Shown one piece after another: positions 13,494-54,848 of a stretch of DNA of 64,000 bases. Below the pieces are notes generated by a model. It was given only the letters and a program-made list of their open reading frames with translations, made no database searches and was not told where the DNA came from. Each line of letters begins with the position of its first letter. Position 1 is the stretch's first letter. The stretch is from Norana najaformis (taxonomy: Eukaryota; Annelida; Clitellata; Crassiclitellata; Hormogastridae), in contig OZ029913.1 in NCBI GenBank assembly GCA_964023275.1, positions 56,914,858-56,978,857 of the forward strand, given 5' to 3'. A program made the position numbers and the translations under genes.

Positions 13494-16400
13494 TCAGCAA
13501 CGTTTCCGGAGCTTGTATTCTTTGACCGGAGCTGCATCTGCAGGCCTTTTCTTGCCAGCAATGATGCTTGAGGACTGGGTGCTGCCTGCCATACGGGAAG
13601 CTGCTGCCTTCATACGATTCACATGCTTCATGATGGCCTCGCTTGACTTGGCTGATGAGAGTTTGGATGGCGTCTATAAGCAAAAAAGACCAGGGTAGGT
13701 AAATGTTAAACGCTCTTTGAAAACAATGCTCTGACATCATGTAAAAATTAGAGTTAGGTGTTAAAATACAAAAGACAAGTAAAACGGTCTTTGAAAATAA
13801 TTGTCTGACATCAAGCAGTAATAAAAAATCAAATCTCATGCAATATTTTATATACCGGTACTGCTAAAATTCTATCACCATTAGATTCAGCACATATTTT
13901 CTTTATTTTTCTTTATGATGACAGTTGATAGGCTGTTACCCAAAACATTTTTCTACAGGTCTGAGAACACAGAAACTGCCCTATCCTGTGAAGTGGTGCA
14001 TGTGGATCAAAAAGGATGATCCAGGGGTATTTTTTCCTCAAAAAAGTGAATTAAAGGTTTCAAACCTGAAACAGAGCACTACAAGAAACTTTTATAGGTT
14101 GCATTCACCTTAAAACATTAAGGAGACATTGCAAGTACAAACCTGTTTTTGATCCTTTCTTACACAAAACTGCCGGTTGTTAGGGGCTTGAGAATTACTG
14201 AGCTGTCAGTTGTGAGGGATTTATTCTTTTTTAACCATTACAGGATTAAAAGAAACAATGAACTGTTACCTTGAAAACCTTTGCTGGTGGCACTTTCTTG
14301 CTTTTACCCAATGAAAGGGGTGGCCTCTTGTGAACCAATGCTGCCTGCGACTGCCCGACTGGCTTCTTCAGTGGCTTGCTGTCCTCATCATCACTATCTG
14401 ATTCTGATTCATCATCACTCCTTGAGCCCTGGTCCTTCTTCGAACGACCAGCAGTTCTCAGTTGCTGCTCTCTCAATCGCAGTTCATCGTCTTTCTTGCG
14501 TAGCTCCGCCTCCCATTTGGTCAGCCTCTGCTGCTTTGGCAGCAGCTTCTCCCTCTCCTCAGTCAGAAACTTTCTCTGCCTTTCCAGCTCCTGTTTCTTC
14601 CTCTCCAGTTTTGCCGCATCCATCTCCTTACCCGTGGCATCGGGACCTAACGGTTCTGTGTCGACCGGTGCATCAGAGCCATCCTTTGCTTCTGTGTCTT
14701 TTTTCTCGGCGTTCATTTCCATCCGTCTGAGAACACGTTCTCTGTACTCAAGTGTCTTTTCCATCTCCTTCAAGCGACGTTCGGTTCTCCACAACTTCCC
14801 CTCATTCACCTTCAGGTGAGACATCCGCTCATCCAGCTCGACATCCAAAGCCCTCAGTTTCTCCTCTCTCCTTGCCAACATCAGTTCCTTCTGCTTCAGG
14901 TCTTTTTCTACACTTCCTCCCACAGTTCCTTTATCCGCTGGAGATCCAACATTCGCCTTTCCGACAGACTTTCTTTCGACGACCATCTTGCGGTCCGCCG
15001 GCGAGCCGAGCACTGGTTCTCTAGCTCGGCTGAATTTTCGACTATGAAAATCGATATTGAACTTTTTCGTGACTGTCTTGCTCTCAACTTCCTTCAGCCT
15101 AGCTTTCAGCTCAGTGTTGACTGCAATAAGTTCATCAATCCTGCTCTGCAGTGCCTTTGTATCACTCAAAAATCCGTCATCATTGCTGGTCGACATGTAC
15201 CACGGTGTGCTGCTGCTGGTCTTTCCTTTATCCTTCTCAGCAACAGCTTCAAGCTCTGGCACCTTCACACGGTCATGCTCTTTCTGTTTCTTGCTAGCAG
15301 CCTTATCAGCCGTTGCTTTCTCGTGGTCTGCCGTTTCACTGTGCTCCTCTGTTTCAGGCTCATGCGTTTCATTCCTTAGATCCGGTGGCTCAACGCTCTG
15401 TGGATTTCTGACTGAAGGCGGACTTTCCAATTGTCTTGGAGTGGCATAAGAATGCCAACGACTGTTGTATTCGAGCTGTTCCAGCTCACATTCGGCATCC
15501 ACCCCAACTTCAACTGTTGGGTCTTCGCATTGAACATTCTGGCTGTCTGTAGGGTCGTCCTCGGAACAGTGGATCGGATTCTCAGCTCGAAACTTTTCCA
15601 GAGTAAACTCCACATCATCTTCATCTTCGATCGCTTCCGTCTCATTTGCATTCTGGCCATCTGCTCCAACTACAGTTTCAACTACATCAAAATCATCTGC
15701 CATGAAGATGTCACCATGTTCCGCAGCTGTTGCAGCCACAGCATGCGACAACTCGGCCGATTTCTTCCGTGCTTCCCTGTTTGGCCTTTCCTCCTCTTTT
15801 CCCTGACTTTTCCCTTTGACCTGGTTACCTTTCCCCTTTCTGTTTCCCTGTGAAGGCTTCTCTCCTTTATTTCTGTCAACTTCGTCAATAGCTTCCAGCC
15901 GCTCGGCTCCTGCCAATCTCGACTTCTTTGTGACACTCCGTTTCGATGGTCCAGGCTCTGGGTCAGACTCGCTTCCCGTATCTGTTGACGATCTCTTTGA
16001 AGTCCCAGTTGATTTAATTTCTCCTTGCAAAAGTTCAAACACCGATCTACGCGGAGTCGACCGTTTCGGCCGGCTGTTAATATTCAGATCAGCCTGAATG
16101 GCAAACTTCCCTTTTGCTGAATCCTTTCCGGTTGATTCTTCCGAGGTGCTCCGATTCCTCTCTCGATTCTTCTTTCCTGTCATTTTCCCACTGGCTGTAT
16201 CAGTTTCTGTTAGCTGCTTAGTCTCCTTCTGCTGATTTTCCTCTGGCTGTACCTCCTCTGATATGCATCTTGTTTTAATGCTCTCCTCATCATCAACAGT
16301 TGCTTCAACTTTTTTGACATCCTCAACAGCCTCCAATGCTGGCACATCATCACTAATTCTGTTGATATCTCCAGAATATTCCAGATAAGGTGTACTGTCT

Positions 16401-16756
16401 TCATTTTCACTTGAAACGATCCCATCATCTTTACAAAGAACATCCTGTTTTGAGGGCTCCTTCAACTCCTGACCGCTGCCATTGACTGAAGTGATAACAA
16501 CAGTCTCCTCCATGACATTGTCGCTCGCCAACGGGTGCGCAAAATCGTCGAGATCTGGCATCTCCTCGTTCTCCAGAAGTTCCTCTGTTCTTTCAGCTTC
16601 TGGAAGATGCAGAGCAGGCTTGTGTAGCTCACTGGACAGAATTTCAGGTTCATCCTTTGTCATCTGGTCTCCTAAAACATCATCGTCACCTGTTTCTGCT
16701 GCCTGAGAACCACCATTTTCTTTCGGCACAGAAAACTCTGCCGATGCTGGCTCCAT
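13494..16756 (-). CDS. uncharacterised acidic coiled-coil protein (~888 aa, two coding exons)
   Basis: I do not recognise the family. Coding exon 1 is 16756-14270 (829 codons from ATG) and ends at 'aag|gtaaca'. Exon 2 is 13673-13494, after 'cttatag', in phase 0, giving 59 more residues and a stop; it ends in a basic LRKRC tail. A 'tttcattag' just upstream of the ATG suggests a 5' UTR intron. The N-terminal half is acidic and polar. Near residue 230 comes a basic SRPKRSTPRRSVFELLQ stretch that could be a nuclear signal. Heptad-rich coils lie at about residues 535-560, 618-684 and 714-769, followed by an acidic Ser/Asp run and a Lys/Pro-rich tail. GSPAD occurs twice (about 584 and 604). The charge pattern suggests a nuclear or cytoskeletal scaffold, but that is inference. 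The gene is divergent from RNF41. Confidence 0.85.
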
Positions 16757-21783: not shown

Positions 21784-24700
21784 ATGGGTTTCGAAATTGG
21801 ACGATTTGAGGGAGAGGTTGACGAAGAGCTCATCTGTCCTATATGCAGCGGTGTACTCGAGGATCCACTGCAGGTAAGTTGCTCACTTACCGAGTCCAAG
21901 TCATCATCAGCTGTCAGTTTCTTTTGGCTTTTTAAGATCTTGAACTTCTTCATTAGTCTCTGGTCAACCTTTTCATGTGGCTGACCACAATCCATTTAAT
22001 TCATGTGAGCCAACTGATGAATGACAACTGTCTGTTTGACCCAACCAGTCTGATTGCTTTTGCATAACTGATAGCTGTTGTGACCCTTCAACTCCAAAAC
22101 TGTAGCTCAAGCACTGATGATTGAAGACATCCATATATCTTCCATAACTGTGCAAAAACCAACTTGAAAACGCTAAGATGCAGAACGATTAAACACATAA
22201 AAATATTCGATACAAGCAGTACAGAATGCTGATATTTTACATCTAAATTGAACCACAAAGAAGCGGCATCTGGCACTCAGAACTTGTTGAATTTTGTTTG
22301 AGCATTTGGTAGTGTTTGACTTATTTTTAAATTAAGCCAGATCTTTTTATGAATGTATTAAATTAGCATGAGCTGATAGTAGGAACCTTGTCCTTATGAC
22401 TATAATTTGGTCACAACTTAAAACTTACCTCATAGGTAATACCTTTTTCAGCTGACTTGTCCAACGTAGGCCACCGCTTTGTCTCAGTGGACTGACTTTC
22501 TGGGTATTGACCTGATTGCTGCTTGATTTTGGTGCACCATCAGTTGATGCCTTGTATATTAGGTACCAACAGTATATAAATTGCTATTTATATTATTATC
22601 CAAAGTGTGAGGTTCATTGTGAAATAGCTGCTTGATGAGTTTTATACGTGGCTTTGTTAGGCAACACAGTGTGAGCACGCATTCTGTTCGACGTGTATCC
22701 ATGACTGGATGAATCGACAGCCAACTTGTCCCATAGATCGTGGTTCCTTACTGCGCAAGAACCTTAAACCCGTGCCAAGGATTCTTAGAAATCTTCTGTC
22801 AAGACTTAAACTTTCGTGCAGTAACGCGGAATTTGGTTGTCAAGCGGTTGTGAAGCTTGACTTACTTCCCGCTCATCTGCAGGTAAAATTCATTACGTTC
22901 GTTTTTCTTTTCTCTTTCTGTTCGAGTGTAATAAACTGCTCATTATGTAAGTTTGTGTTTAAAGAGTTCGTTTTTTATATCTGTTCATTTATTTATTAGC
23001 AGTCAGATTATAAGGTCTACTACTCATGCATTGGACCTGGCATAGTAGCATATTCTGAGACTTAGTGTATACCAGGTAAATTGGAAAGGCGTTTAAAGTA
23101 TTGCACCACCTAAGGTGTTTGGTGGTTTGAAGTACCACATTGGATGTATGGTTTTGAAGTACGACCTAATAATGTTGCACTTTAAAAAGATTCTTATACA
23201 ATACTGTGTGATTATCTGAATACATGCATAGATGCTGTATATGCAAAGTTAAACTTTGTCTAGCAGTGTGCGATCACTGAAGCACTTGTGTCTAAATCAG
23301 GTAGTATTTGTTGTTGATATTTATGACACTTTCACTGGACTGCACTGTTTCCTATAGGAGTGTGAATTCAATCCAAAGAAACCAATTCTGTGTGACAAAG
23401 GATGTGGTTTGACTATGCCGAAAGATGAACTTGCTGTGAGTAGCACTTATTTCTATCAATAGCTGAGATGAATTTTAAAAGTTAAGTTTGTCCACTGTGG
23501 ACAAACTTAAGATCAGCCTCCTATGGCCAACTGTTTCTTCCAGCTTGCCAAAAAAAGATGTTTGATTTCCGTGCCTTTTGACATGCTGGGTCACATCTTT
23601 GGAATTCACTACCACCAGATTTAAGGGACCCTTCTCTTACTCTTATTTCATTTTGCAAGTAAATGAAGAGTTATCTTTTTTCAGTAACCTGCACTTTTGA
23701 GGTGAATTCATAAATTAACGCAATATAAGTATCTGATTAATAATGATAATGATGATAATAATAATAATAATAATAATAGTAGCAGTAATAATAGTAATAA
23801 ATTGCCTACTTAGTTTTGTGCCAGTTGTTGCTTGTTCTTACTTCAGGCTTCGGGTGTTCTGGTCTGTGCTAGAGCCCAGTATGGTGGCGAGACATGTTCT
23901 GTTCATTTCTAGTGCTTTGTCAGGTCCTTAGAAAGTTGCTAAGCAGAACTCTGAATGAATACATATGTGCATGTCTTGTCTTGTCCTGTCTTCAGTCATC
24001 CTTGAGCTGAGGATTGGCTGCACCACGGAAATAAGGGCTTACCTTACATACAGCAATTATTTTCTGATGAATTCTAAAGGCAGTTTAAATTCATGCAAAT
24101 ACTTTCGTCCTCTCAGGTTTTCTGTTGTTAGACAGACTAGTCACTAAATAGTGTACTTATATCTATTTGTGCTTGCTTCTTAGAAAGATGAGGTTCCAGT
24201 ACTATGTCATCATCGTCGTCCACGTCATCATCATCACCATCATAATCATATACTTTTGTCCCCTCAGGTTTTTTGTTGCTGGGCAGACCAGTAACTAAAT
24301 AGTGTACTTATATCTATTTGTACTCACTTATTAGAAAGATGAGCTTCCATTACAAGGTCATTTTCTTCATGATCATCATCTTCATCATTTTCATCATCGT
24401 CATCATCATCACTGCACCTTTGTTTTCTTCTGCATTTCTCGGTCTTGTACTGCCATAGAAAAGCTGTAGAAATTTGTTTGGCACCAGTCTTCTGTGCTGT
24501 CAAGCCATTCTTTGCCAAGTTTTCCTGTACTTGTACCTTTCACAATTCCCAACATAACAGTTTTCTATCGTTCTAATGTTATTCGTCCTGCTTATGTCCA
24601 AACAGACCCGACTGGTGTAAAAATGAGAATCATCTACTTTGAGGTCAGGATGGTTTACTATTTCATGACTGGCAGTGGAAAATTACTTTTTAATACGGTT

Positions 24701-36830: not shown

Positions 36831-37632
36831 TGTTCACGTAGCAGTCCAAGATCATGTCATGTCATGTAATCATCTCTGGACTGGATCCAATCGTTGATTT
36901 CTCTATGACATCCCTCCACAAATCTCGTTTCCCGGCCATCTCCTCAAGGGTCATTCTCCGTCTGCCCTCCGTTTTCCCATAGATAGTAACTCCGGCACCT
37001 TTCAGATCCTCTTCAAGGCAGTCTATCCATCTTCTTTTCGGTCTTCCCACTGCCCTCTTTCCGTCCGGTTTGTATTTAAAGATTTTCTTTGGATTACGGT
37101 TCTCCTCCATCCTCAGGATATGTCCTGCCCACTTCATTCTTCTTTTCTTAATCACATTGTTTATCAATGGTTGTTGTGTTCGTTGTCTAATACTTTCATT
37201 CGTTACATGGTCCTTATAGCTAACTCTTAGTATTCTTCTGAGCCATTTGTTTTCTGCTGCATTCAGTTTATTCTCCATTGTTCTTGTAATACTCCATGAC
37301 TCACATCCATAGATTAGTACTGGGATCACGCATGTGTTGAGGATTTTTAGCTTTATCTCCAGTTTTATATCATGTCGTTTGAAGACCTTTTGTAACCTGT
37401 TAAAGGTTGACCCTGCAAGTGCTATTCTCCTTTTGATTTCTGTTTCAGATCCTCCCCCTGCTTTCATTTCACTTCCCAGATAGACAAACTTATTTATTAC
37501 CTCAATTTCTTGTTCCTTAAGCTTAACTATCGGCCCGTTGTATTCCTTTTTTGTTATTGGCATTATTTTAGTTTTGTTATAGTTAAGTCCAAGATGAGCT
37601 TGAGATATTGGGGCTTCATAACAAGACCAAGA
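36831..37632 (-). mobile_element. 5'-truncated LINE with reverse-transcriptase C-terminus
   Basis: A minus-strand open frame (about 37620-36862, some 250 codons) covers the end of the reverse transcriptase of a non-LTR retrotransposon. It holds VYLGSEM, then RIALAGSTFNRLQ, VLIYGCESW, WAGHILRM and GRPKRRWIDCLEEDL, an order common in RTE- and jockey-related elements. It is truncated at the 5' side. Past the stop there is a short (acatg)n tail. The 11-mer 'caagaccaaga' flanks it at 36820-36830 and 37622-37632 and may be the target duplication; the left copy lies 22 bases beyond the tail, so this is tentative. The frame is intact over its length, suggesting a fairly recent insertion. Confidence 0.85.
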
Positions 37633-38084
37633 CATAGGGACTCAGACATTTGGCCTATGAGATGGGACCGAGTCGGGAGATGTCCCTGAAAGTGTATTTT
37701 ATTGTCAGCGGTCAGCAATTTGTTAATATTTTAATGTATGTTTACTTCCGTTTTAGGAAATTTCTCAATGATTTTTTAAAATAATTTTATAATGGCCTTG
37801 GTATCTACTTATTATCATTGTACTTATGATTGCAGTTATGTTACATGAGTTCACTTGCCTAACTGCATTTGTGTAAATTAGTAGGCAACTTAGTTAATAC
37901 TACTCATAATGAACACCGACATCAGACAAGTGAATAAAGTACTACACAAAGCTGTAGGCTTTCACCTCTCATGGGCTAATGACAGTCATCGAGCAGTAAA
38001 TGAAATTATTGTATTATTATTATTATTACAGAAATGCAAAGCTGAGGCACAGTTAGACGGTTGCCAGGTGAGATGCATTTTTAT

Positions 38085-38959: not shown

Positions 38960-39080
38960 GGTTATCGTAATCTCTGGATTTCTTAAGCGCCCAGAAATCC
39001 AGTGTTTCAACAGACGCGTGGTCAAAAACAAAATTGATGAGGTAGGCATCCATGGGCAAATGCGGTACCAAGTCGAGATC
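38960..39080 (-). mobile_element. LINE 3'-tail fragment (reversed)
   Basis: Minus-oriented tail: 'taatctctggatttcttaag', 'cgtggtcaaaaacaaaattg', 'ggtaccaagtcgagatct'. It abuts the plus-oriented copy that starts near 39110. Confidence 0.55.
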
Positions 39081-39109
39081 TAAATGTGAACAAAATGTAC
39101 ACGTTTTTA

Positions 39110-39625
39110 TATAGCTGCTCATTTATCAATGAATTAATTAATTGGGTGAGATCCTTCACCACCGCTGCCTGTTTGAGTGGGCGCCACGCCTCATCTGTCC
39201 TAACACTTCTTCGCCCTCCCGTCACCTCATCCTTAAAATTTGGAAATCGCTCCATAGCCATAGCTGCCCCACCGCTTTGGAATAAACTCCCGCCAGAATT
39301 GCGACAGTTGTCTGGTCAATCATACGAACTCACCAACACTTCACCTCTTTCAGTTTCTGCGCAGGTCTTTCACTCAAGACTGAAAACACTTCTTTTCCAG
39401 AAATCTTATCCTGATTCTTCCTCTTCCTCTTATCTCTCTTCTCGCTTCAATTTCAAACAGCATCCACCGTAGCCGTCCGACTGTCTGAGTGCCTGACTCC
39501 TGGATCTTGACCCTTTTGCCTATCGATTTTGTTTTGACTGAGCGCCTGTGAATAAGCTGGTTCCCGCGACTTAGCTTTTGTTGAGCGCTGTAGAAATCTC
39601 GAGATTACGATTACGATTACGATAT
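39110..39625 (+). mobile_element. best LINE 3' end copy (reference for the tail family)
   Basis: An open frame reads SIAIAAPPLWNKLPPELRQL and then FHSRLKTLLFQKSYPDS, the standard C-terminal tail of CR1/L2-like LINE polyproteins. The untranslated tail follows ('ctatcgattttgttttgact', 'gcctgtgaataagctggttc', 'gctgtagaaatctcgagatt') and ends 'acgattacgattacgat'. The upstream polymerase domain is missing. All other copies of this family can be aligned to it. Confidence 0.8.
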
Positions 39626-40026: not shown

Positions 40027-43000
40027 ATGGGGGAGAAAGCAGCACAAGAAGACAAGAGTGAGTATGGTGTATAAATTAGGTATGCAAATTTATGAATTTT
40101 TTTAATAGTTAAAGAGGGGTTGACTGCGTTTTTCAAAAGTAGTTGTAACTTATTCAGTAGTTAAACTGGTTGTTTGTAATTAGTTTTAGAAAAGGTTCTT
40201 TAACAGCTTTCTAAATGACTTGTGTACCTAACTTTGTTAATACTGTAAGATGGGAACTGAGCTGCTGGAAGACAGGTGTAATTGATTGTTAATCTTCAAC
40301 TTAATATAAACAGCATACAACCTTCTTTACGTTTCGTATTGTATGTATGCATCTGTTATCTGTGAGACATTGATAAAACAATGAGATAACATTTCAAAAC
40401 AGTGGACTGAATACACATGTCACTTTCGCGGTGTCTAAAAATCTATTGTATCAGTTTAAATTCGGACAGCGACTATAAAATGCATTACAAAGTTGGAGAG
40501 TTTGACAGATATCCAGAAGACTTCTTGAAACAGTTAATGTATAAAGCTGTAATTTTTTTGGTCTTCATTTCACTTTCTTATCGGCACGTCTATAGCAACA
40601 ATGAACTATTAAAATATACATGATCACTGTCCTCTGCTCCAACCTGAATTACCTCAATTACCTCAATTTTCAATCTGTTTATGGCTCTTAATGTTTCCTG
40701 TTTCCCGGCTTCATTGTGCACGTCTGACCTTTGTAAAGAAGGCATTATTAAATTATAGTTGTGTAGTTGTATTGTATTGTATATTACTTAATCAGATGAC
40801 GGGTAGGCCTAAATGGCTTAATCAGACGGTGGTAAATATAACCAAACAGGCAGTGTTGCCAGCTGTAGTAGCTCAACAGAAATGATTTGTAGACACTGGG
40901 AACAAGGTGGGAATATCTGTTGCTGAAATTAATTAAGCAAAAGCAGTAAAGTAATAATTGAGGTTTCATAGTTTAACTTCTGTACTTTAACCTGTTTCAC
41001 CTATTTTTTAAAAAGTAGTAAACCACTTTTTAACTGCTTAAAAATTGATAGAAAATTACCAGATCTGTTCTGGGAAGATGGGAATAGGCACGCTAGACTT
41101 CTTGTGGTCCTGTCTATTACCAGGTGAAATGTGATGAAATTCAGTAACACTTTCCATTAGTTCGAGCTGAATTTTTGAAAATTCCCAGAAAATTCCCAGA
41201 TGGTTCCAGAAGATGGAAATATGCAGTTCTTGAGATCGCATCTATCACAGGGTAAATTTGACGGGATTCAATAACAGTCCCTAAATCACTTTTCTATTGG
41301 ATCAAGCTAAAAATTTGAAAAATTTTGCCAGAAAATCTCACAAGATTGGTTCTGGAAGATGGGAATAGGTGCATTAAACTCCTTGAGGTCCTGTTTATCA
41401 GGTAAAATTTTATGAGATTCAGTAACGGTTCTCAAACCCCAATCCATACCTATGGCCAACTGTTATTGATATTCATTCATACATCTGATTATGAGAAATT
41501 GCACAGTTGTTTGGATTTCCGTAGCATAGGCGTGTTTGAAATATCATTATGCACTGGTGGGATTTAACTACATGACAATTATATTTTTTTATATTTACTA
41601 ACTTTCTTATCAAATTGCAATAAATTGTCTTTGTATATTACTGCTAGCATTGGGTTTGAAAGGAATTATGAAATTATTTTGTTACAGTGGCATCTGATAG
41701 CAAAATGTCGGCCAACAAACAGCCGGTACCTGTAGATATTGGCTCTGTCCTGTCCAACAACTTGAAACTTGTGACCTTTTGTCGAATTGGTGAGTTGATT
41801 ACCCATGACCAGAACCTCGCTCTTCGATACCATATCAGCAATTCATTCCATCCAAAGTCAGGAGATTGGATAGGGCTTTTTCAGGTGAGCCGCAGCGATT
41901 CAGAAAAATACCTGTACATGGGCTTCCACTGGGCTCAAAAGCATCCGTACGACAAGAAGAAGCCACTGGAACGACTGGTGCACTTCAGGATCAATGAATT
42001 TAACATACCTGTAAGCATCACATTCACTTCACGTTTTTACTTTGCAATATATTTGTTTTGTTCCTTCAGTTGTATAATCATTATCGTAATAAGCCAGAAT
42101 GTTCTTTTAGTTCCTATGATTATAATGATCAAGCCATTGTACCGCTGTAAAACAAACTGCCACCAGAATTATGGCAACTATTAGATCAGTTCTACCAACT
42201 CTGCATCCCTTGCAATCTCCATTCCTGTTCAACAACATCCTATCCTGACTTCCACCTCTTTTCCTTGTCTCTGTTGCTGCTTCAATTCTAAGCACCATGT
42301 ACCATAGCCGTCCAGTTGTTGTCTGACCTTTGAGATTGACCTTGAACCAAACTGCCTTACCTGCCTACTGATTTTATTTTGACTATGAATAAGCTGATTC
42401 CCTTGACTTAGCTTTCATTGGGTGCTAAAGAAATCTTCAGATTGCGAGTACAATTACTGATGTAGTACAGCAGAGACATGAATCCAAAATTTAATGCAGC
42501 TTTGGAAAATGGCCTCAAGTTGCAACCTTGTTATGGCAGTACTTGATATGGCACCTAAGGTAGTATTGTAAGAAGACTCCAGTGTATATGATTTCTTAAC
42601 GTTATTGTTTAAATCTGTATTAGTGAACAAAATCAAAGCAGCTAGGGTAGTAGTGAGAATCTAGTGTGTTTTTAAGAGAGAGTTATGTATTAAACCTTTA
42701 ATTGTACGTGTCATATAGAACCTTCAAAGTTACTTAGTGAATTATTTGTTTTCTTATATTTATGTGGCACCTTTATTTAATGAAAAGATGAAGAGACCGT
42801 CAGGTGATGGTGCTTGCCAACTCTGTGTACAAGACTTGCTCAGAGTGACTGCTCAACAGAAGCACAAACTCACACACTGCATTGCAAGATGAACCCTCAA
42901 CCAATCATTCTGGTCTGGCTGGATTCTGCTACCTTGCCACACCTGCAGTAATTGCACAGGCTTGCCACTGAACAGAGAATCCAGTTTAAACATGTCTCTT

Positions 43001-46000
43001 AGTTTATAGGATAATATACATTGGCCAGCCAACTTGTCTTCATCATTGCTCAACCCAAACTCGCAAATACTGCCACATCTGCAATAATTGCACAGGCTTC
43101 ATCATTGCTCAACTCAAACTCGCAAATACTGCACAAATCATTGACTGTCTTGTACCTTGAGCCACAGCGGTCCTGGGTTTCCAGTCTTTCCTGGTCATTG
43201 GCCCAAGGCATTGGAATTTGTTACCTGTTTCATTCTGCTCTGCGAGCTCTGCAACGTCATTGAGTTCTGGGCTAAATTCTTGTTTTCTGATTGCTTATTT
43301 AACTGTAATCTGTCATATGGTCTCAGGAATTATGACTTGTTCTGTTCAATGAATTGTGATTTTGGACTGCAGTTTTGCTTAGAAGTGACCATCCATTGAT
43401 CCATGGTGCATTAAATAACAGCGCAATATACCACAGAAGTTTCCAGATTTCACCTGTACCTACGTCACCATGTGAGCTTATTTAATGTATGCATATATTT
43501 GAATGTTAGTAATGCCTTTTAAGGACCTATCTAACCCATGTCACTTGTATTGCAGGTTAACTGTGGAAAAGATACCTACTACCAATTCTTATATATGACT
43601 GCATCAGAGAAGCTCTTAGGTTGCAGCAGTGTATTTGGAATTCGAATCTATTTACCACTTGTCAGAAAACTGAACACTACATCGAAAACAACATCTGCAA
43701 CTACACAACCATCCACTACCAGCCAGCAGCAAAAAGCTATAGTTCCCTACGAATTCTTCCATCAGCAGCATGCACTACTGCAAATGGAAAATGCTGTAAT
43801 CCACCTTGTAAGTTGTTTAGCCACTTTTTCTGATCCACAGATAGTGCGTTAAGTGTGAAGTGCTAGCAGTTTGCTTCATTTTCCTGTCTTGTTTTATGAG
43901 GGTGAATTGTATGTATCTGGATATTGATATTGTGAATTGCTCCAACTGAACCGTCTCTTACCTCCTTAACAGGTTTGGGTCAACTACTTATGGATAATGA
44001 ATCTGACCTATGTGAAAAATGTCATTACCCTGTTTAGGATATGAACGGCCAAACTGTTGGTGTCAGCTGAGCAGGCAGACTGCTTGTTTATATAATTGCT
44101 TGTAAGTTATTTCAAATAACTGAGTTTAAATTTCTCTGATCTAGAGATTTCTGTAGCAGCGTTGTCATAAGATGCGAGGCATCAGTCAGTGGTCACTGAA
44201 GTGAAACAGAAGTTTATAATCAAGCAGATATGGTTGATAACAGAGAATCAGAAAGACCCAAAGACAGGTTACTGAGGATAAGCGTCGCAGTAAAGTTTGA
44301 GTTCAGTCCTAAATGACATCAGAGAACTTACAGAGAGAAGCAGGCAGTGAATTTCAGAACTGTAACCAGCCACCAAAATTTGTAGTGCTCAGTAATTGCA
44401 AAATATTCCATCTGTATATCTCTCAAAAATTGAAACAGTTAGTTCAGATTAATTGATAACAGAATTAATAAATGTGTGTCTAACACATCTCCTTCAGGTT
44501 TTCATGTAGATCTGGCTATGCATAAAATGCACACTAGTATAACCAAGCTAGTTACTAGTATGCAGTTATATTTATGTGTGCTTATTAGGCCTAAACAGGC
44601 TTACATATAATGTGATGACCATTATAATAACAGATTTTAAATATGTATTATATAAATGTTTTATTTAGTGCTATGAAGATCTGGTTGCTAGACACTGTGT
44701 GATTGATTCAACAAAATATCCAGTTTCACATCGCTTTGCTGGTAGTGAGGGTCTCAAAGACTGGAGCAGATTGTCATTCAGTGCCTTATCTTCCTATTCA
44801 CCATCCATAAACTGCATTGGATGCCAACAATCCAAGGACATCATTAGATCCCTTCGAAGAAGAATTTTCTTGCTGAGAAAGCCTGCAAAGCAGGTTGGCC
44901 GCTAGTTAACAACAATTTGACTTTTCATGTTGTATGTTGGTTACTTTATTCTTTTTCCTGAAATGTGAGGAAGAATGTGTTCTTTGATGCATAACATGTG
45001 ATCAGATGATGCCTTTTATGTGTGATGTCTCATGCCAAACTACAGATTTACCTAATATATACAACATCTCCCCTCCTTTGCTTCTAAAGACTGATTCCTG
45101 AAATTTCGATTTGGAAAGTCATTAGTTTAGTTTAGAATGACTGCAAGTTCTTTTTTTATGCACAGTTAGTGCAGTTAAGTTAATTTGCCTTTTTTAGATA
45201 AGTTAAATTGTCTTGTTTACATTGCTTCTGAGACCTTCTTAAAAGTGCCATAAAAGTGTGTTCAAAATACGTACATAACAAGCAGACATATGTCACAAAA
45301 TTTGCATAATTAGTCTCAATATTGACTAAACTGTGAAATATACTTTGTATTATTTATTATACGCTTTCATGGTTAACTTTCAGTGTGAAATGAAAGATTG
45401 CATCTGCTCGCAGAAGGAAATTGAAGCTTTGCAGAATGAGGTGAACCGGTTGAAACAACGAGAGCTGTCATTGGAGGAGGCTCTGGCAGAGGAACGCAGG
45501 GGAAAATGGAATCTGATTCAACTTCATCTTGAAGTGGAACAAGAGGTGATGCAGAAACTTAAAGAAATTACAACCTGGCTCATGGAGAGACGGTCCAACA
45601 CATCCCAGGTACCAGGAATTTGTTTCTCTCCTTGACTCTTGATGTTTTTGTATTTACTGGTAAGACTGGTCCCTTTAAACTATCCCAGAGAGGCAACCAT
45701 AGGTGTGAAGTATTATCAACGTCATTTTACCACATTTTGGGGATGAAAGGAGACAAAAGACAAAAAGATGGAATGACATTCTTTTCTAATTCTACATCTT
45801 TTTTGTTTTTTATATTTTAAATATTTTCTAGTTGGGCTAGTCTATGACAACTTTCCAAAATCTACTGAGCTGCTGGATGATTAAGTATTGTTACATACAC
45901 AGACCCTCCTTGTAGCATGCATCAGTACAAAATAAGTTCATTTAATAAACTATGGTTGGATAACATAACCCAAATTTAATTCAGCTATAGAAGGCAGCCT

Positions 46001-49000
46001 TGTTACAACTCAACCCCATTATAATACTGTGCTTAAACATGGTTCTACAAGGTCAGGGTTATAACTTCATAAGAAAGTTTCAGTATTTCTATGAAAAATA
46101 CAGAAGCGTTAGTTATCCTAGGATGTGTTTTACTAATACTAGTTTGTTACTATTACTGTTATTTAATTTATCACTAGCAGAACCAGCACCAATACAGTTT
46201 TACATCAGCTGGTCAGCACAGGAAAGACCAAGTCCACATCAATCAATCTTGCAAGAATCAAATCGGCAACCCTTGCAAGGACACCAATAATCCAAGCACC
46301 AGTGAAAAGAAGTCAGTAAATAAAAGGTCTGTTAAGGTTACAAGAAATGGAGGAAAGAACTCACAAAACTTGACTGGAGAAGTTCAAAGCACACTGAAGA
46401 AGAACAAAGTACTGCTAAACCATGATACTTATTCTGGTTCCAAGATAGCTCTCAGATTCTTATTTAAAGAAAATGCACCTAAAAACACTACAAAGGACCA
46501 GCCACCTACTGCTGAAATCTATTCTGGATCAAACCTTTCCTCAAGATTTTTGTTTGGGGAACATACTCCAGACAAATCTAGAAAACAGAAGCCATCTGGA
46601 AATATCAACTGCTACTCTGGGTCAAACCTTTCCCTCAGACGTCTGTTTGATGATCGGTTTTATGAAAAAACAGCAAAAAATCAAGCATCATCTGGTAATA
46701 CTTACTCTGGTTCAAACCTTGCACTATCTTATTTGTTCAGTGAAGAAAACAACGATGCAACCACAAACTTCAAATCTACAGATGAAAGCAGCAGTTGTGC
46801 AAGATGTTCCTGCCAATGCAAAGCACAAATGCTAAAAGAAGAGGGAAAACAAAGTGTGCTAAGCAACACATCTAGCTGCAAGACTGGTACAGAAAGAATG
46901 AAGATGCAGAGAGATGATGCAGAAGAAGGTTTAAAAAGGAAAGCTGAAAAATCTGTTCAGATTAACAGTAAAAAATTATGTGTGTACTTTCGAAATGACA
47001 AAGAGGAGGAGGAAGAACTACACCTTAACGATGCAACAACAAAATCTAATCCTACTAGTAGAGATTACTTAGTAGAAATCAAAGATAATCACCTTGTAAA
47101 AGTAACAGAACGAGACAACAGTTCCAGTGTCAAACAAGACACAAAAAGTGCACCAGTCTTTGTCACAATGCCGATGACAGCTGGCATAGAAGTTACCAAA
47201 GAAACAAATGCTACTGCCACCACCTGTTGCTCCATTGCCAGACCAACACCTGAACCAAGAAAGAAATCTAACAGATCACCTGGCAGCAACATGACCCAGT
47301 CTACTACGAAAGACACAGTCGTGAAAAACGAAGCCAAGAAAGATGAAATGATACAGGTAGATGGTTTACTGTACAGTGGGGGTGTGAACTGGCTTTCAAG
47401 TGAGCTACCCACACTGGCAAAAACTACCCCAGCTATATCATCAATGAGCTGTCAGACAACCACGGAAGTCATTCCGCCAACTAAATCTCTTACCGTGTCG
47501 GTGGTAGCTGCAACTGATGGCAAGCAAGATAAGTCCAAAGACTCTGCCATTCTTACAACCCAAGCAGATATTTCAAGAGATGCAAAATCTGCCTCCAGCT
47601 TAGGAAAAACAGGAGTCAACAGCCGAGGAAATGAAACAAGTATTGCTTCAAATCCCACAATTACATCTATCAATTGCAGACCAGCCACAAATCAAAATTT
47701 AGTTATGGGGTCCGGAGCACAAGGCACCAACCCCAGACCAACAATGATGGGCACGATTCAAAGCATGGAAATGACTGACATTTCGTCAATGTCACAGCTG
47801 ACACTGATAAAAGACCTCAACATCATATCGATCTCTACTTCAACAGATGCTGCTTCTACCCAGGCACTGCACACCCTACAGAAAATCAGTCCAGATGCAA
47901 CTGTGACACCTGTTATAAAACCTGGTCCAGAAGAGAACAAGAAAAGAAAGAGATACTCTACCACTGGTTCTTCTGCACTTTGCAAATCGAACAACACCAG
48001 CGATCCTGCATCAGGCAAGCCAAATGAAAACAATAAGATCACGATGACTGCATGTCTCACACCTGGATCAGGGTTCTGCAACTTCATATGCACTGCCAAA
48101 CCACGCCTCCCAAAATCCCCAACAATGCCTTTAGTTCCAGACGACTCAGCTAGAAGCAGTGCACTAATCCAGCCAGTCAAACCACAGTCCCCACCTCTGA
48201 CAACTTCACTTGGTACAACGAGTGGTGCAATTCAGTCCACCAAAAGTGAGTCAAAGACTCTGCCTTTGATGTCAATTCGTTCAACAGGAACAGGGTCTAG
48301 TGCCTCTACTCAACTTAGCAAAGTGCTACCCCCTCCGTCTTGTCCCCTTTTGCCACCCAATCAAACGAGACTTCAAACTGCCTTTCAGCAAGACGCTTAT
48401 GATGAATATCCACCACTACCTTCAGCACTGCCTGATTTAGTAGCAATGAAACCAAGCATGGGTCATGCTGATGCTAGTTATGCAGCAGTGATCAGACGAG
48501 ATAAAAAGCCTGTGAGCAGACCAGAGGCTACCATGTGTTCTCTAAAGAGTCTGGCAAGGCTAGCTAAGGATATTATTCTGAAATACTACAGATCAGAGGA
48601 AGAAATGAAAGAATCTTATCCAAAAGCAGCTATTCCAAAAGATATGTCTCCTTTAGTACAAAACCTTTATAACTCACAAAAGAAAATCCAAAATAAAGGA
48701 AGTCATGTCAATGAACTGGAATGCAAACAAGACACAGTGGACACCAGAAGACAGGGAAATGCTGAGGAGAAAACAGCAAACCCCTCTGCTACAACACATG
48801 ATTTCTTGAAAGCAGTCCAGCTATCAGGTGTCATCCAAGAACCACTGATGGAAGAGAATGACCACTCGTCATCAACTAAAGAAGACTCTTTGGCTATAAG
48901 TCAGACTCCAACAAACAAAGAAGACCCCAGCAAAAGTAATCTCACAGCAACTACACAACAGCAGAAGGTCTCTTTAAACACATGTGCTACAGCAGCAGTA

Positions 49001-49579
49001 CAGCAAGACCCATTAATAACAGATATAATTCCAACTAAAAGACAAGAACCCATTCAGACTGATGAGGCTCAAACCAACAAACAACACACAAATCACAAAA
49101 ACACAGTCAAAACAGATCACATGAACCCCACTCAGAAAGTTCAAGCACCTAGTAAAAGACAGCGATTCAAAAAGGCTGATCTAATCGTCAACATCAATGC
49201 TTTTTCAAGAAGACGTGAATCCATTAAGACAGCTCCAGCTCAAAGGGAAACAAGTGAGGAAGAAGCTGTCAAAACGGAGCTGAAGACAACAAGTAATGAC
49301 TCTACCATGAAAGATCAGGATCACACCACCACACAAAATCCAGTTCATACAGTTCCACCTCCAGAAAGACAGGACCTTCCAACGACTGATAAGTCATCTG
49401 CTATACAGAATTGCAACATAACCAATCAAACTTCATCCAAAATACAAGACACGAATCAGAAGAACAACATAAAGACAGATCCAAATACCACTACAGAACC
49501 AGAGCCACAAGACTACAGAAGTAGGTTTTCAAAGCACTTGGCCAATCTGCCGCAAGAGGACCCAAGCAGGCACACTTGA
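40027..49579 (+). CDS. SKICH-domain coiled-coil protein, CALCOCO/TAX1BP1-like, with long repeat-bearing tail (~1484 aa)
   Basis: Coding exons: 40027-40057, 41688-42010, 43556-43807, 44669-44893, 45384-45608 and 46181-49579; all phases agree. The ATG at 40027 (ccaaATGggg) reads in frame across the first junction; 'aaaATGtcg' at 41704 is an alternative. Residues ~35-150 form a SKICH domain (GDWIGLFQV..YYQFLYM..VFGIR), as in autophagy adaptors such as NDP52 and TAX1BP1. A coiled coil (KEIEALQNEVNRLKQRELS) is in exon 5. The 1132-residue last exon is Ser/Thr/Lys-rich and probably disordered. It holds four YSGS[NK][LI] repeats from residue ~436 at 30-31 residue spacing, DEYPPL near 1093, and a basic cluster (PSKRQRFKKADLIV) late on. 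Zinc fingers of human TAX1BP1 were not seen. Adaptor function is inferred. The tail is far longer than in vertebrate relatives. Confidence 0.85.
40985..41435. repeat. three degenerate ~140-bp tandem repeats in the SKICH gene's first intron
   Basis: The units each contain 'gttctggaagatgggaata'-like, 'cttgaggtcctgt'-like and 'gattcagtaac'-like phrases, near 41068, 41202 and 41350. Similarity is moderate, so the array is old. Confidence 0.7.
42165..42455 (+). mobile_element. LINE 3' end in the SKICH gene intron
   Basis: Opens with remnants of the LINE frame ('ccaccagaattatggcaac', matching PPELRQL at 39290). It continues with 'gattttattttgactatg' and ends 'aaatcttcagattgcg'. Interrupts intron 2. 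Confidence 0.7.
43035..43140. repeat. ~60-bp tandem duplication
   Basis: 'tcatcattgctcaac' followed by 'caaactcgcaaatactgc' occurs at about 43040 and about 43099. Confidence 0.8.
46430..46744 (+). repeat. coding tandem repeat: four YSGSNL units
   Basis: Units begin at 46430, 46520, 46613 and 46703 (spacing 90, 93, 90). Each encodes Y-S-G-S-[NK]-[LI]-[AS]-[LS]-x-x-L-F (for example YSGSNLSSRFLFGE and YSGSNLSLRRLFDD). The ~18 residues between cores are polar and Lys/Gln-rich and vary freely. A weaker relative (YSGGVNWLSSEL) occurs near 47370. Conservation of the core against drifting linkers suggests selection on a short motif. Confidence 0.9.
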
Positions 49580-49656
49580 CAAGATGGAATCTAACATCAG
49601 AGGAGTAAAGGATAAACGCAACTGAATACTGAAAACACAGCAATATAAGAAAACAC

Positions 49657-49944
49657 AATAAAAGAACTAAGTTTCATGTTCTACACATAGCCATTAGCAA
49701 CAAGGTAACAAAAGGCACATGCACAGCTAACATGCAAAACAGGTATTAGCTCCATTCTACCAAGTTCATAAAATAACATTTCCTTACAGTTCACAAAGCA
49801 CAGAACATGCTAAACCCACATTTACAACCATTTAGCAGGATATAAGGAAATATTCTATAATGCAACAGTATTATTTTGACAAACAAGGGTTGTGCACTAC
49901 CAGTACATGACATATGGCTATGTTACAGGCTAGTAATCAATAAA
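49657..49944 (+). terminator. polyadenylation signals of the SKICH gene
   Basis: Two AATAAA hexamers lie 78 and 360 bases past the stop, at 49657 and 49939. The second is followed by a T-rich stretch ('ggttttatttttag'), which fits a cleavage region. Either could be used. Confidence 0.4.
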
Positions 49945-51090
49945 GAACTTCAACATTGATTTCCTTGGTTTTATTTTTAGCCAAAATAAGAGCTTCCTTA
50001 AAGCAAGAGATACAGATACAACACCACATTCCTGTTATGCTACTGACATCTACTGGTACAGTGATCTATTTGACCTGTGAAGAACAATACATAATGCATT
50101 GTGAAAAGCCAAATTATTAAACAGCTGTGTATGAAACTGGCTCTTAATATATGCCACTTAAAACATGTAGACTATCGGTAGATAAAACACAAACCAAAAG
50201 CTCTATGCTGATATGACACAACTTGTATGAAATTTTAAAAAATATCTTAAACCTCGATAGTACTGAACAAATAACACACAAATGCAATTAATGTCCTTCA
50301 AGATATGCTCAAGTCAACTAGTTGCAGTTCTTCTAAAGAAAATATTTAAATAAGACAAATTTTACAGTGTGATCTTGTTGCTAACTTGCTGTTCATTTTG
50401 CACATTCCAATTCTAATCCTAAGCTCACATAAAAAAATTAGATTGCATAATAACAATGGATATCAATCAGTTGCAGAGTTTGGAACAAGTGTAACTGCTC
50501 AAACCCTGTCAAAACTAGGTAGCTTTAACATACCAGCCACATACGTTATAAGTATGAATTTTTCAAATAAATTTAAGGCACTTCAAATTTGTAGTCTGTT
50601 AAAGGTACAGGTAACACAGTTGTTAACACTGATATGCAGACCTTGGAAGTGAAGGATATAGGCTGAAGTGCAAACATGACTCCAGCATTCCAACAATGGA
50701 ACATTTTTAACACCCTCCCATAATCATGCATTGGTACTCGTACAAACCCTGGATGGATGGCAGGCCAAGTTGGCCCATATAGCCTGGTATTGCATGAATG
50801 GTTTGCCAATCCAAATACTAACCATGATCGATCAACATTGCCTAACTTCACTTGTGTCATATACACCATACCAAGCCACTTGTATCATATACACCATACC
50901 AAGCCACCACCTATCACTAACGTTAAACTTTTTTAAGAAAAATGATTTCTATTCATTGCCTTTGCTAAGACTGAAGTGTTCTGCATTAGCTTCATATTAC
51001 TGTAACTTTTAAATATCAACGTTAACAAGGCATGTTTGGTACAGTGAAGCAGTATCAAACGGTCGAACCAGTTTACACCAACACACATTG
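49945..51090. other. intergenic between convergent genes
   Basis: Separates the 3' ends of the SKICH gene (plus) and RABEPK (minus). Holds a 30-bp tandem duplication ('catatacaccataccaagcc') at about 50855-50908. No gene seen. Confidence 0.5.
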
Positions 51091-51094
51091 CACA

Positions 51095-51235
51095 TAATCG
51101 CAATTGTAAACTTGAAATTTCTAAAGCGCTACTTAAAAGCTATGCACAGGGCACCAGATTATTCATGAGTGCTGTGTTGGGTCAGTGGGGTTGCCAAAAG
51201 ATGCCATGTCAAGAACCAAGTCCGGCTGCCTGAAG
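51095..51235 (-). mobile_element. LINE 3'-tail fragment, subfamily B
   Basis: Reversed subfamily-B tail: 'taatcgcaattgtaaacttg', 'ggttgccaaaagatgcc', 'atgtcaagaaccaagtccgg'. Confidence 0.6.
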
Positions 51236-51742
51236 ATCAGACAGACAATGGCACAAATACAGTTGATACACAAGCTAATAAGCTAAGTTAACAAGCTGAG
51301 TTGATACTTAGAAGTGATCAAATTAAGGTCTGCATCTTTGCTGTAACACACCTAAAATGCAGCTGATAAAGCTGTATAAGACTAGTTTCCATTATAATTG
51401 CAATCTTACACAGTGCATCATTTGAAATTTCAGTTAAACTGTGTTTGTATGCTACAATTAAACCATAAAAAGTCATGGGTCTAGGGAGTACCACAAGTCA
51501 AGACATTCATAACAGTATTATCTTATAAAACAGAATAAAATCCATTTCTTTAATTGAAATCTCATGCATGCCTATCATTACTAGTAAAAGTTGAGTAAAT
51601 TCTGTCTACAGTCAGATATCTTCACAACCATGACAAATGATCAACCTCTGTCAGTTCCTGTTTCACATGTGCTACCCCCTGGAGCATTCTTCACACCAGC
51701 TCAGGGAGTGGCTCTGGTCATGTAACCACTAGAAATCAAAGT

Positions 51743-54518
51743 TCATGATAATGTCCTGAGCAGAATAACAAATGTGTCTTCAAATATCTCGCCCTCTGTG
51801 TCCGTGCCACCGTGGATCAGGCCCATTTGTATCGTCTTGTAAGTTGCACAGGAGGCACTGGCACAGCCACCTGTTTCTTCCAGTCTACATTTCGCTATGC
51901 ATTCATTCAATCCTTGACCCTCAAATTCTGCAGCATTGCCCTCTGGTAAGGTTTCACAGGCACCTGAAGCTGAAAAGAATTTAAGCAGAAAATGTTTTAT
52001 TATTTTCAAAAAAGGTTTACACATGGTAAAATACTGACATGAGATGACAAGAGATCACCTTGGCTTGATCTCTGGATTTGACCTAGCACTGAAACAGACC
52101 TAATAACTGGCTACTGCAGATCTGACTAATTACCAGACATAAAGTTGTAGTGTGGTACTGAGAAATTTACATATACATAAGCATTTACTGCAAATAGCTT
52201 ACAATTCAGACACATATTTCTACTAGCTATAGCAAAAGAATTACATAACTGAAACAATCCATTCATGACTAGCATGAGTATTCTTACTCTTTCTGCTAAC
52301 CTGTGGTGGCAAGTGTTGCCACATGCTGATAAATATTGGCATAAAATTCACAATGTTTCAGATCATGAACTTTTTCCAAACTGACCATAACCATAGCTAG
52401 CCTGCCTCTCCTCTTGGACCTGTTCATACTGGTTTGATGTATCTAGACACTGATGTATCTAGGTTTGATGTATCTAGACACTATGTCCAGAGAGCTGATA
52501 TAAGAATTGGTCATCAATTGATTGATGACTTGTACTGTACTGAGTTTACTGTCTTTTTGTTACTGCGTGATACTTAAATAGTCTATTATATTTCTATTAT
52601 AATTAAGATCAGTCTGGCATAGATCAGCCAAGGCTAGTATGAAACTGTCCTAAGTAACCAACAGTACAAATGTCCAATGAGCAGAAAAAAAAACAAATGC
52701 AAAACTGCATTATTCAAACCTGATTCTCTGGGCTTCAAATCTGGAGAAAGTTCTGGTGTAAGATCCTCATTTCCACTTTCCGTAGGTATGACATTGTCTC
52801 CAGTTCCATTCTGTTCCTTAATGTCTAGCTTGTTTTCACCAGCAACTGCTTCCTTAGTCACTGCTTCTGATAATGGAATCTTGAGATTGAAAACACAGGT
52901 GGCAAAGTCCAGCCTGTTGCCAGGAGGGGAACCTTCAGTCTTCAATTCAGTCCACTTCATTGTTACTGCAGCAAACCAGATCAACAAAGCAAATGTCATC
53001 TTCACTAGCCATTTTCTGATGTGTCACTATAAAAATGTAGCATAACGAATTGTCCTTTTAAAGGAATTTAACAGATATTAAGCAAAAGGAACTAAAATGC
53101 ACTTTTATTTCATTGGTGTTGAGGAATATAGATAAGCTTTCTATACTCTGATGATATGATCTGCTAACATAAGTGTTTTTTTCAAAATTAAAAAAAATTG
53201 CAATTATCTTTAGCACACAATTTATTAGATAAACTTTTCAGTGAAGGCACATACACAAAACAGAATATATTCAAGCACAAAATCTGCTTCATATTCCACA
53301 TGCTGCTTTTTTAAAGTGCTCAGTAGTGTCTCAGACTGTATTAATTAGCACCACTGCAGCATAGGAATTACAGATCAGTTACTAACATAAGGTAGTGAGA
53401 AATCAGATAAAACATGAATGCCGTTACACACTTGCCAGTAATTACCACTGTTTTCAGGATGAAGTGACTGAACTACTAACAGAAGAGCCATTCAAACAAT
53501 GATTCATTTCGACAGCAATCCAACTACTACACAACCTTTCTCTGCAGCATTTAAGGCTTGACAGTGAACACGACATAAGCAAGATTTGAATCCTGACTAC
53601 AGTAGTGAATATCAGCTCAAAGTGCTGAAATTTATTTAAGTACTAAGTCATTAAACGAAGCCTCTATTTTAAATCAGAGTATGAAGCACTTGCGTTCTCA
53701 CTTGTGTCAAGTTTGTAAAAGTCGTCCAGTGCACCATCACGATTCATTCCACCAAAAATGTAAATATCAGATCCACTAACAAAGCCACTGTGGCCGGTTC
53801 TTGGAGGAGGCTGACCTTTCTTCTGCTTAACAGCAGTCCATGAACAATTTCCAAGATCTAGAATGTGAAGGTCGCTGTAGAATGTTGTTCCTGACATTCC
53901 ACCATGGACAAAAACCTTGTCTCCAACTGCAACCATCAGATGTCCAAGTCTTGGCTTTGGCGGCGTACCACTCATACGAATCGTACTCCAGGTGTTCGTC
54001 GAAGCATCAAAGCTGTATACCTGCCGATCTCCCACTGGATCAGTTCCCTTGTCTCCCCCACTGTAGACAATGAGGCGGTCCCCAATATAAGGTCCGTTGT
54101 GAAATATCCGCGGTGAAGGCAGGTTACCAGTACAAGCAACAGAACTCCAAGTATTTGAGACAGTATCAAACACCTGAATATCATTCATATTACCATATTG
54201 GTCAGCTCCACCAAAAATGTAAATTTTGTCTGGTTGGCAGGAAGGTAAAAATGCTGAATGCTCATACCGAGCTTTCAGACCAGTACATTCAATTGTATCC
54301 CAAACATGAGTATCAAGATCTAGGACATACACTTCAGCAAACGTACCATTTGGATTGGCACCACCTATAAAATATAATTTACCATTTGACTGTGGCTTTG
54401 GAACATGGGTGCAAGTGTGGCCAATGCGCATAGTGGGACAATCCCCTACAGCTGATAAGACATACCACAGATTTGAACTAGGTTCGATCCCTCTCTCCAG
54501 TATCGGATGAAACTCCAT
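51743..54518 (-). CDS. RABEPK: Rab9 effector protein with kelch motifs (RABEPK)
   Basis: In vertebrates RABEPK (p40) binds Rab9-GTP and helps endosome-to-Golgi transport of mannose-6-phosphate receptors. Coding exons on the minus strand: 54518-53702, 52965-52720 and 51969-51743, all in phase; 429 residues from the ATG at 54518 (human 372). Kelch repeats with the GG doublet are visible: FIGGANPNG, IFGGADQYG, YSGGDKG, HGGMSG, IFGGMNRDGALDDFY, then IHGGTDTEGEIFED in the last exon. The sixth repeat is split by about 85 extra residues, first acidic and polar (NGTGDNVIPTESGNED) and then Cys-rich (CETLPEG..CIAKC..CASASC); vertebrate RABEPK also has a spacer here but not this Cys cluster. The gene is convergent with the SKICH gene and head to head with the palmitoyltransferase. 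A possible extra upstream exon is listed separately. Confidence 0.93.
52436..52490. repeat. short tandem duplication in a RABEPK intron
   Basis: 'ttgatgtatctagacac' occurs at about 52434 and about 52465, with a third partial unit between them. Confidence 0.75.
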
Positions 54519-54546
54519 CGCCAGCACAGCTAATCCCCTTGCAAAT

Positions 54547-54848
54547 TCTATTGGGGTTTGTTGATTGTCAAACAGAAATGTAATCAGTGTCTATAATCAC
54601 AAAACGACACACAGCGACGACTGTATCTGCTTTTCACTTGTCTTCGTCTCGTTGTTTCCGGATTTTGTTACAAGAACAGCGGGACCAGCAGAAAATTTTG
54701 ATGATGACGCTGACGATGGCGGTGACTGTTGAAATCCTCGAAAAGGCAGCGTATCCTTTGACTTTTTCTGTTGCTGACGAAAGATGACTAAAGATGTGTC
54801 TTCATAACGGTGATGAATCCATTGCAATGTTTGGGCCTCGCTGCCCAT
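54547..54848 (-). CDS. possible extra 5' exon of RABEPK
   Basis: A minus-strand open frame from ATG at 54848 (acaaATGggc) runs about 70 codons and is Ser/Pro/Gln-rich. A donor at 54638|54637 ('acaa|gtgaaa') and an acceptor 'aatag' at 54549-54548 would remove a 90-bp intron and join it, in phase, to the open sequence just before the RABEPK ATG (FARGLAVLAMEF). The phase agreement is suggestive, but vertebrate RABEPK has no such extension, so 54518 is kept as the main start. Confidence 0.3.

Follow-up and report, generated by a model that had tools for sequence, protein, structure and literature searches.

What might a short segment be doing four times over, in frame, in the last exon of a gene that begins with a SKICH domain? 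SKICH adaptors help to select what selective autophagy takes up, and they are known mainly from vertebrates. The locus described here lies in a 64,000-nucleotide stretch of DNA from Norana najaformis, which we call the window.

The repeat array and its host gene

The four units begin exactly where the original prediction had placed them, each at a plus-strand Tyr codon (Table 1), and all of them lie inside one open last exon of 1133 residues, spaced 90, 93 and 90 nt apart. The 12-residue core that had been proposed, Y-S-G-S-[NK]-[LI]-[AS]-[LS]-x-x-L-F, fits each of the four; its formula omitted the acidic residue at position 14 (E, E, D and E, in unit order), although the end that had been given for the array, 46744, covers it. 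Extended to 14 residues, the consensus of all four units reads Y-S-G-S-[NK]-[LI]-[AS]-[LS]-x-x-L-F-x-[DE], with units 1 to 4 being YSGSKIALRFLF-KE, YSGSNLSSRFLF-GE, YSGSNLSLRRLF-DD and YSGSNLALSYLF-SE. Six core columns (Y1, S2, G3, S4, L11 and F12) are without variation in the four units.

Our model of the host gene has five exons, separated by GT-AG introns that are all in phase 0, and joins to 1469 residues. Its assignment as a SKICH-domain gene proved sound: the open frame of exon 1 (41672-42181) matches Pfam SKICH at E 2.2e-12, exon 2 alone reaches E 0.13, and the two joined give a nearly full-length match at E 1.5e-17 (profile 1-102 of 103). Exon 3 matches no Pfam family at E values up to 1, and coiled-coil families gave weak sub-cutoff Pfam matches only, the coil of exon 4 being judged by eye. 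Inositol 5-phosphatases of the INPP5K kind also carry SKICH domains; we rejected such an enzyme as a candidate, since Pfam detects no phosphatase catalytic domain in joined exons 1-4 or in the tail. The SKICH domain, together with the introns and the LINE-like frames of the window, points to an animal host. Three helix-like stretches of this gene begin, by eye, with similar cysteine-rich sequence (SINCIGCQQSKDIIRSL, CEMKDCICSQKEIEALQNE and SSSCARCSCQCKAQMLKEE, at 44804-44854, 45384-45440 and 46787-46843), which could possibly serve metal binding or disulphide dimerisation.

The tail encoded by the last exon is 45% Ser, Thr, Lys, Asn and Pro, and its composition suggests that it is probably disordered. 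Searched against Pfam up to E 1 it matched only DUF7555 (E 0.97, far under the family's cutoff), and against NCBIfam it had no match. A single-sequence AlphaFold model of 122 residues had a mean pLDDT of 38.8, a value consistent with disorder but weak evidence for it, and strands were drawn without confidence; at this pLDDT the model gives no structural information.

Table 1. Positions of the array, of its host gene and of other features in the window.
Feature	Positions	Strand	Basis or remark
Exon 1: 102 aa with the start codon and the initial part of SKICH	41705..42010	+	GT donor after 42010
Exon 2: SKICH end and Ser/Thr-rich linker, 84 aa	43556..43807	+	AG acceptor, GT donor, phase 0
Exon 3, probable, 75 aa; weakest of the model	44669..44893	+	open frame, AG/GT ends, phase 0
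Exon 4, coiled-coil-like, 75 aa	45384..45608	+	AG/GT ends, phase 0; heptad-like by eye
Exon 5, last: 1133-aa low-complexity tail to TGA	46178..49579	+	single open frame
Unit 1 core YSGSKIALRFLFKE	46430..46471	+	pairwise 12-mer comparison and codon alignment
Linker 1: 16-aa polar stretch following the 14-residue core	46472..46519	+	
Unit 2 core YSGSNLSSRFLFGE	46520..46561	+	pairwise 12-mer comparison and codon alignment
Linker 2: 17-aa polar stretch following the 14-residue core	46562..46612	+	
Unit 3 core YSGSNLSLRRLFDD	46613..46654	+	pairwise 12-mer comparison and codon alignment
Linker 3: 16-aa polar stretch following the 14-residue core	46655..46702	+	
Unit 4 core YSGSNLALSYLFSE	46703..46744	+	without the Arg of units 1-3
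836-residue open frame, acidic, coil-like stretches by eye	14246-16756	-	no Pfam match up to E 0.01
RING-finger exon	22661-22999	+	zf-RING_2, E 2.2e-6
LINE retrotransposon fragment-like frame	36862-37641	-	by eye; Pfam only sub-cutoff DUF6451
LINE retrotransposon fragment-like frame	39041-39472	+	by eye; no Pfam match
Kelch-repeat gene	53664-54590	-	Kelch_KLHDC2_KLHL20_DRC7, E 7.1e-60

Copy number and constraint on the core

The likeness of the units exceeds chance, which confirms the observation from which this work started. Seven or more identities were shared by 42 pairs of 12-mers in the exon, whereas 200 shuffles of its residues averaged 2.3 such pairs and never gave more than 12; the best pair of the exon has 10 identities where the shuffles reached 8. 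Similarity is concentrated in the core, with a column identity of 0.71 in its 12 residues and 0.16 in the remainder of the 30-column unit; in a test that allows for free choice of the position of the 12-column window, this contrast was matched in 4 shuffles of the columns out of 20000, and in 64 out of 20000 when units 1-3 were taken by themselves.

Four appears to be the full count. The ten best sites in a BLOSUM scan of the tail comprised the four units, scoring 50.8 to 52.5, and six others at 6.8 or less, and hmmsearch with a profile of the unit found four domains in the tail. Elsewhere in the window no further copy was found among 2092 six-frame ORFs, the next best profile match having E 0.46. 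A candidate fifth copy beginning YSGG at 47372 (YSGGVNWLSSEL) was rejected, being absent from those ten best sites; the same stretch has one match in the PDB up to E 10, to kelch-like protein 17 (E 0.038). The tail also holds a weak second direct repeat, NDATT (46751-46779 and 47027-47055; 23 of 29 nt identical), whose copies stand 276 nt, or about three unit lengths, apart and which was reached by 2 of 40 codon shuffles.

At the DNA level the copies have drifted: over 38 nt they are 63, 79 and 66% identical to unit 2 as the reference copy, a divergence that explains why Tandem Repeats Finder did not report the array. Silent codon differences occur at five of the six invariant core residues. 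Nei-Gojobori counts among the copies, with linkers counted from residue 13 onward, give pooled values of pS 0.70 and pN 0.19 (ratio 0.28) for a 12-codon core and of pS 0.67 and pN 0.23 (ratio 0.35) for a 14-codon core. The linkers give pS 0.62 and pN 0.43 in units 1-3 and pS 0.64 and pN 0.48 in all four, and pairs of random unrelated tail pieces give pS 0.73 and pN 0.71. Equal rates of change in core and linker, the outcome that the original prediction had set against itself, are thus contradicted within the array. Because pooled core pS is close to that of unrelated tail pieces while pN is held down, the comparison supports selection on the core, as an estimate from few codons (12 x 4) in non-independent pairs of copies of one gene, with a core chosen after inspection. 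Constraint is read here from the copies within this one gene.

The same counts bear on the reading that tandem duplication left the array behind as a relic in a disordered tail that evolves fast, with no docking function and a core kept by short elapsed time or by gene conversion. Its tandem spacing would be expected of such a relic, and core pS is uneven: it is near saturation in pairs with unit 1 (0.82-0.96) and only 0.43-0.57 among units 2-4, below the level of unrelated pieces. The linkers also retain some sign, if a marginal one, of shared ancestry: in units 1-3 they resemble one another slightly more than random pieces of the tail do (p 0.05; p 0.09 with unit 4 included), both p values being conservative since the null permits overlapping pieces; the earlier description of a freely varying polar linker was therefore right as to polarity and a slight overstatement as to freedom. 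Yet a relic does not account for core silent sites that, pooled, have diverged about as far as unrelated pieces while replacement sites have not, nor for the lower replacement change of core than of linker in the very same copies. Gene conversion would hold silent sites alike too, so that a protein core retained while its DNA drifted is predicted neither by conversion nor by duplication alone. We judge the relic reading unlikely.

A proposed docking array and its rivals

The best reading, to which we give a little better than an even chance, is that the array acts multivalently, its four units serving as equivalent docking sites along the tail, probably disordered, of a SKICH adaptor. Core constraint, near-fixed spacing, a polar low-complexity tail and a verified SKICH domain support it. 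Each core would consist of a Y-S-G-S turn followed by a hydrophobic L-x-L-x-x-L-F-x-[DE] segment, which might lie on its partner as a short helix or in extended form. Each core would bind one folded domain, and the polar linkers of 16-17 residues could allow four partners to be held at once or, through avidity, strengthen the hold on a partner that is itself oligomeric. If function carries over from the human proteins, the SKICH end would recruit autophagy or TBK1 machinery as in TAX1BP1 and NDP52, and the protein would therefore cluster its tail partner, taken here to be none of those named by the rival readings below, with that machinery. PMC7737610 describes the SKICH domain of human TAX1BP1 as a binder of FIP200 and TBK1 and names clustering as the critical step. 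Of the proposal that a short linear motif has been multiplied for multivalent binding, then, the constraint on core over linker within the array stands and the binding is predicted.

Among known systems, the 20-residue repeats of APC come close: a disordered scaffold there carries a short binding core several times, with variable linkers between the copies, although the core sequence is not that of the array. Against docking, none of the named motif classes that we compared fits all four units: the consensus forms of LIR, eh1, BH3, PAM2, PIP, ABBA and RHIM do not match the core along its full length, and three further classes raise more specific rival readings.

One of these readings takes units 1-3 as cyclin-docking sites whose RxLF would bind the hydrophobic patch of a cyclin, like the RxL motifs found in p21/p27 and in substrates (PMC9906319). 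These units, with R-F-L-F, R-F-L-F and R-R-L-F, hold the only three RxLF strings of the tail, where 0.05 would be expected by composition; the three presumably arose from one by duplication and so count once. Unit 4, however, has S-Y-L-F in place of RxLF, only one of the tail's 11 [ST]P sites falls within the array, and we know of no role in the cyclin RxL motif for the invariant Y-S-G-S, which makes cyclin docking very unlikely. A different set of residues recalls the BRC repeats of BRCA2, in which case the cores would bind a RAD51-family ATPase. The array shares with them a repeat length of about 30 residues and an L-F-[KGDS]-[ED] end in all four units that resembles the LFDE module, described in PMC9162458 as two bulky hydrophobic residues with an acidic last one; three of the four units also have a hydrophobic residue three before the Leu, as V1542 is placed in BRC4. 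BRC4, however, depends on FxxA, whose place Y-S-G-S would hold here, is weakened in binding by Ala to Ser, and spans 21 residues from Phe to Leu (1524 to 1545), against 10 from Tyr to Leu in the array. Neither the array nor any single unit matched the Pfam library, which we take to include a BRC profile, up to E 10 (most matches weaker than about 0.1 are discarded by the program), and a BRC-like array seems to us highly improbable.

Closer to the SKICH family, the units could be a multiplied galectin-8 site of the kind found in NDP52, whose peptide PGLAYGNPYSGIQE contains Y-S-G (PMC4933242); numbered from the single Leu of that peptide, its Y-S-G reaches into the hook at 371-381. Y-S-G alone, though, is common to the units and the peptide. 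The substitution L374A abolishes NDP52 binding (PMC5010046), this Leu, if it is the peptide's only one, stands six residues before the common Tyr, and L-A-Y-G-N-P occurs in none of the four units, so that a galectin-8 site is scarcely plausible. Rather than binding a foreign domain, hydrophobic and possibly beta-prone cores might instead stick to one another in a strand- or amyloid-like manner and so oligomerise the protein. TAX1BP1 self-oligomerises through several regions (PMC7737610), and strands do appear in the single-sequence model, at a confidence too low for meaning. Over core positions 4-14 the hydrophobic moment of units 1, 2 and 4 is greater at 160 degrees than at 100 degrees, and sequence in these units accordingly favours an extended strand and not a helix; unit 3 has a slightly higher moment at 100 degrees (1.11 vs 1.05). 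Arg in units 1-3 and the acidic end residue in all four speak against self-adhesion as well, which we consider quite unlikely.

SKICH kinship, novelty and neighbouring features

The solved structure closest to this SKICH domain is TAX1BP1 (4nlh, E 1.9e-6), followed by NDP52 (about 1e-4), and all six PDB sequences with a match at E values up to 1 belong to these proteins, two to TAX1BP1 and four to NDP52. Like TAX1BP1 and NDP52 (CALCOCO2), the protein has an N-terminal SKICH domain, followed by an exon that by eye looks like a coiled coil; unlike them, it has a short putative coil and a tail of 1133 residues, and no C-terminal zinc finger was found. In the region 41001-53600 (plus strand) the C-C-[HC]-[HC] pattern matched ten times, never in the tail frame and never past the stop at 49579, in a scan blind to intron-split fingers or other spacing, and Pfam detected no zinc finger in the tail. 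Plain membership of the CALCOCO/TAX1BP1 group is therefore not upheld, and the protein is not a standard TAX1BP1 or NDP52. A pattern scan of the tail for LIR-type [WFY]xx[LIV] gave two candidate matches, at tail residues 744 and 768.

With position 114 of the 5z7g chain taken as TAX1BP1 residue 114, alignment places a Cys (43622-43624) at the position of TAX1BP1 A114, which in PMC7737610 is a TBK1/FIP200-binding position where a change of Ala to Gln was tested. Since that substitution was the one tested, Cys may be tolerated; with Cys at this position, recruitment of TBK1 and FIP200 as in TAX1BP1 is nevertheless not assured.

A multiplied, constrained motif in a SKICH protein that lacks the usual zinc finger would indicate a different way of reading cargo. 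A bolder version of the docking reading, which we advance tentatively and think rather unlikely, would have a SKICH adaptor of this animal lineage, which lost the ubiquitin-binding zinc finger or never had one, recognise its cargo by a four-site docking array of its own. If true, cargo choice in SKICH autophagy would proceed via multivalent motif binding and not via ubiquitin. The 14-residue core is short enough for direct use as bait.

As far as Pfam, the PDB and open-access papers were searched, the motif is undescribed. The original prediction that no named repeat in CALCOCO/TAX1BP1 proteins has this core agrees with our searches, in which we found no Pfam family, no PDB chain and no open-access paper that brings YSGS and SKICH together; the PDB returned no matches up to E 10 with either the array or the unit profile. 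The string YSGSN itself has literature matches, whose titles, as far as listed, include some on TDP-43. Viral contigs yielded pattern matches (five stretches for the array, six for the four-unit alignment and six for the SKICH exon) with no confirmed relative among them, as did prokaryote genome contigs queried with the whole tail (184 pattern matches, again with no confirmed relative). Neither collection is intended for animal sequences, and misses in them therefore say little about orthologs.

Beyond the host gene, the window contains a RING-finger exon, a long acidic open frame and two frames that look like LINE retrotransposon fragments (Table 1), as well as a Kelch-repeat gene on the minus strand that presumably encodes something like the Rab9 effector with kelch motifs.
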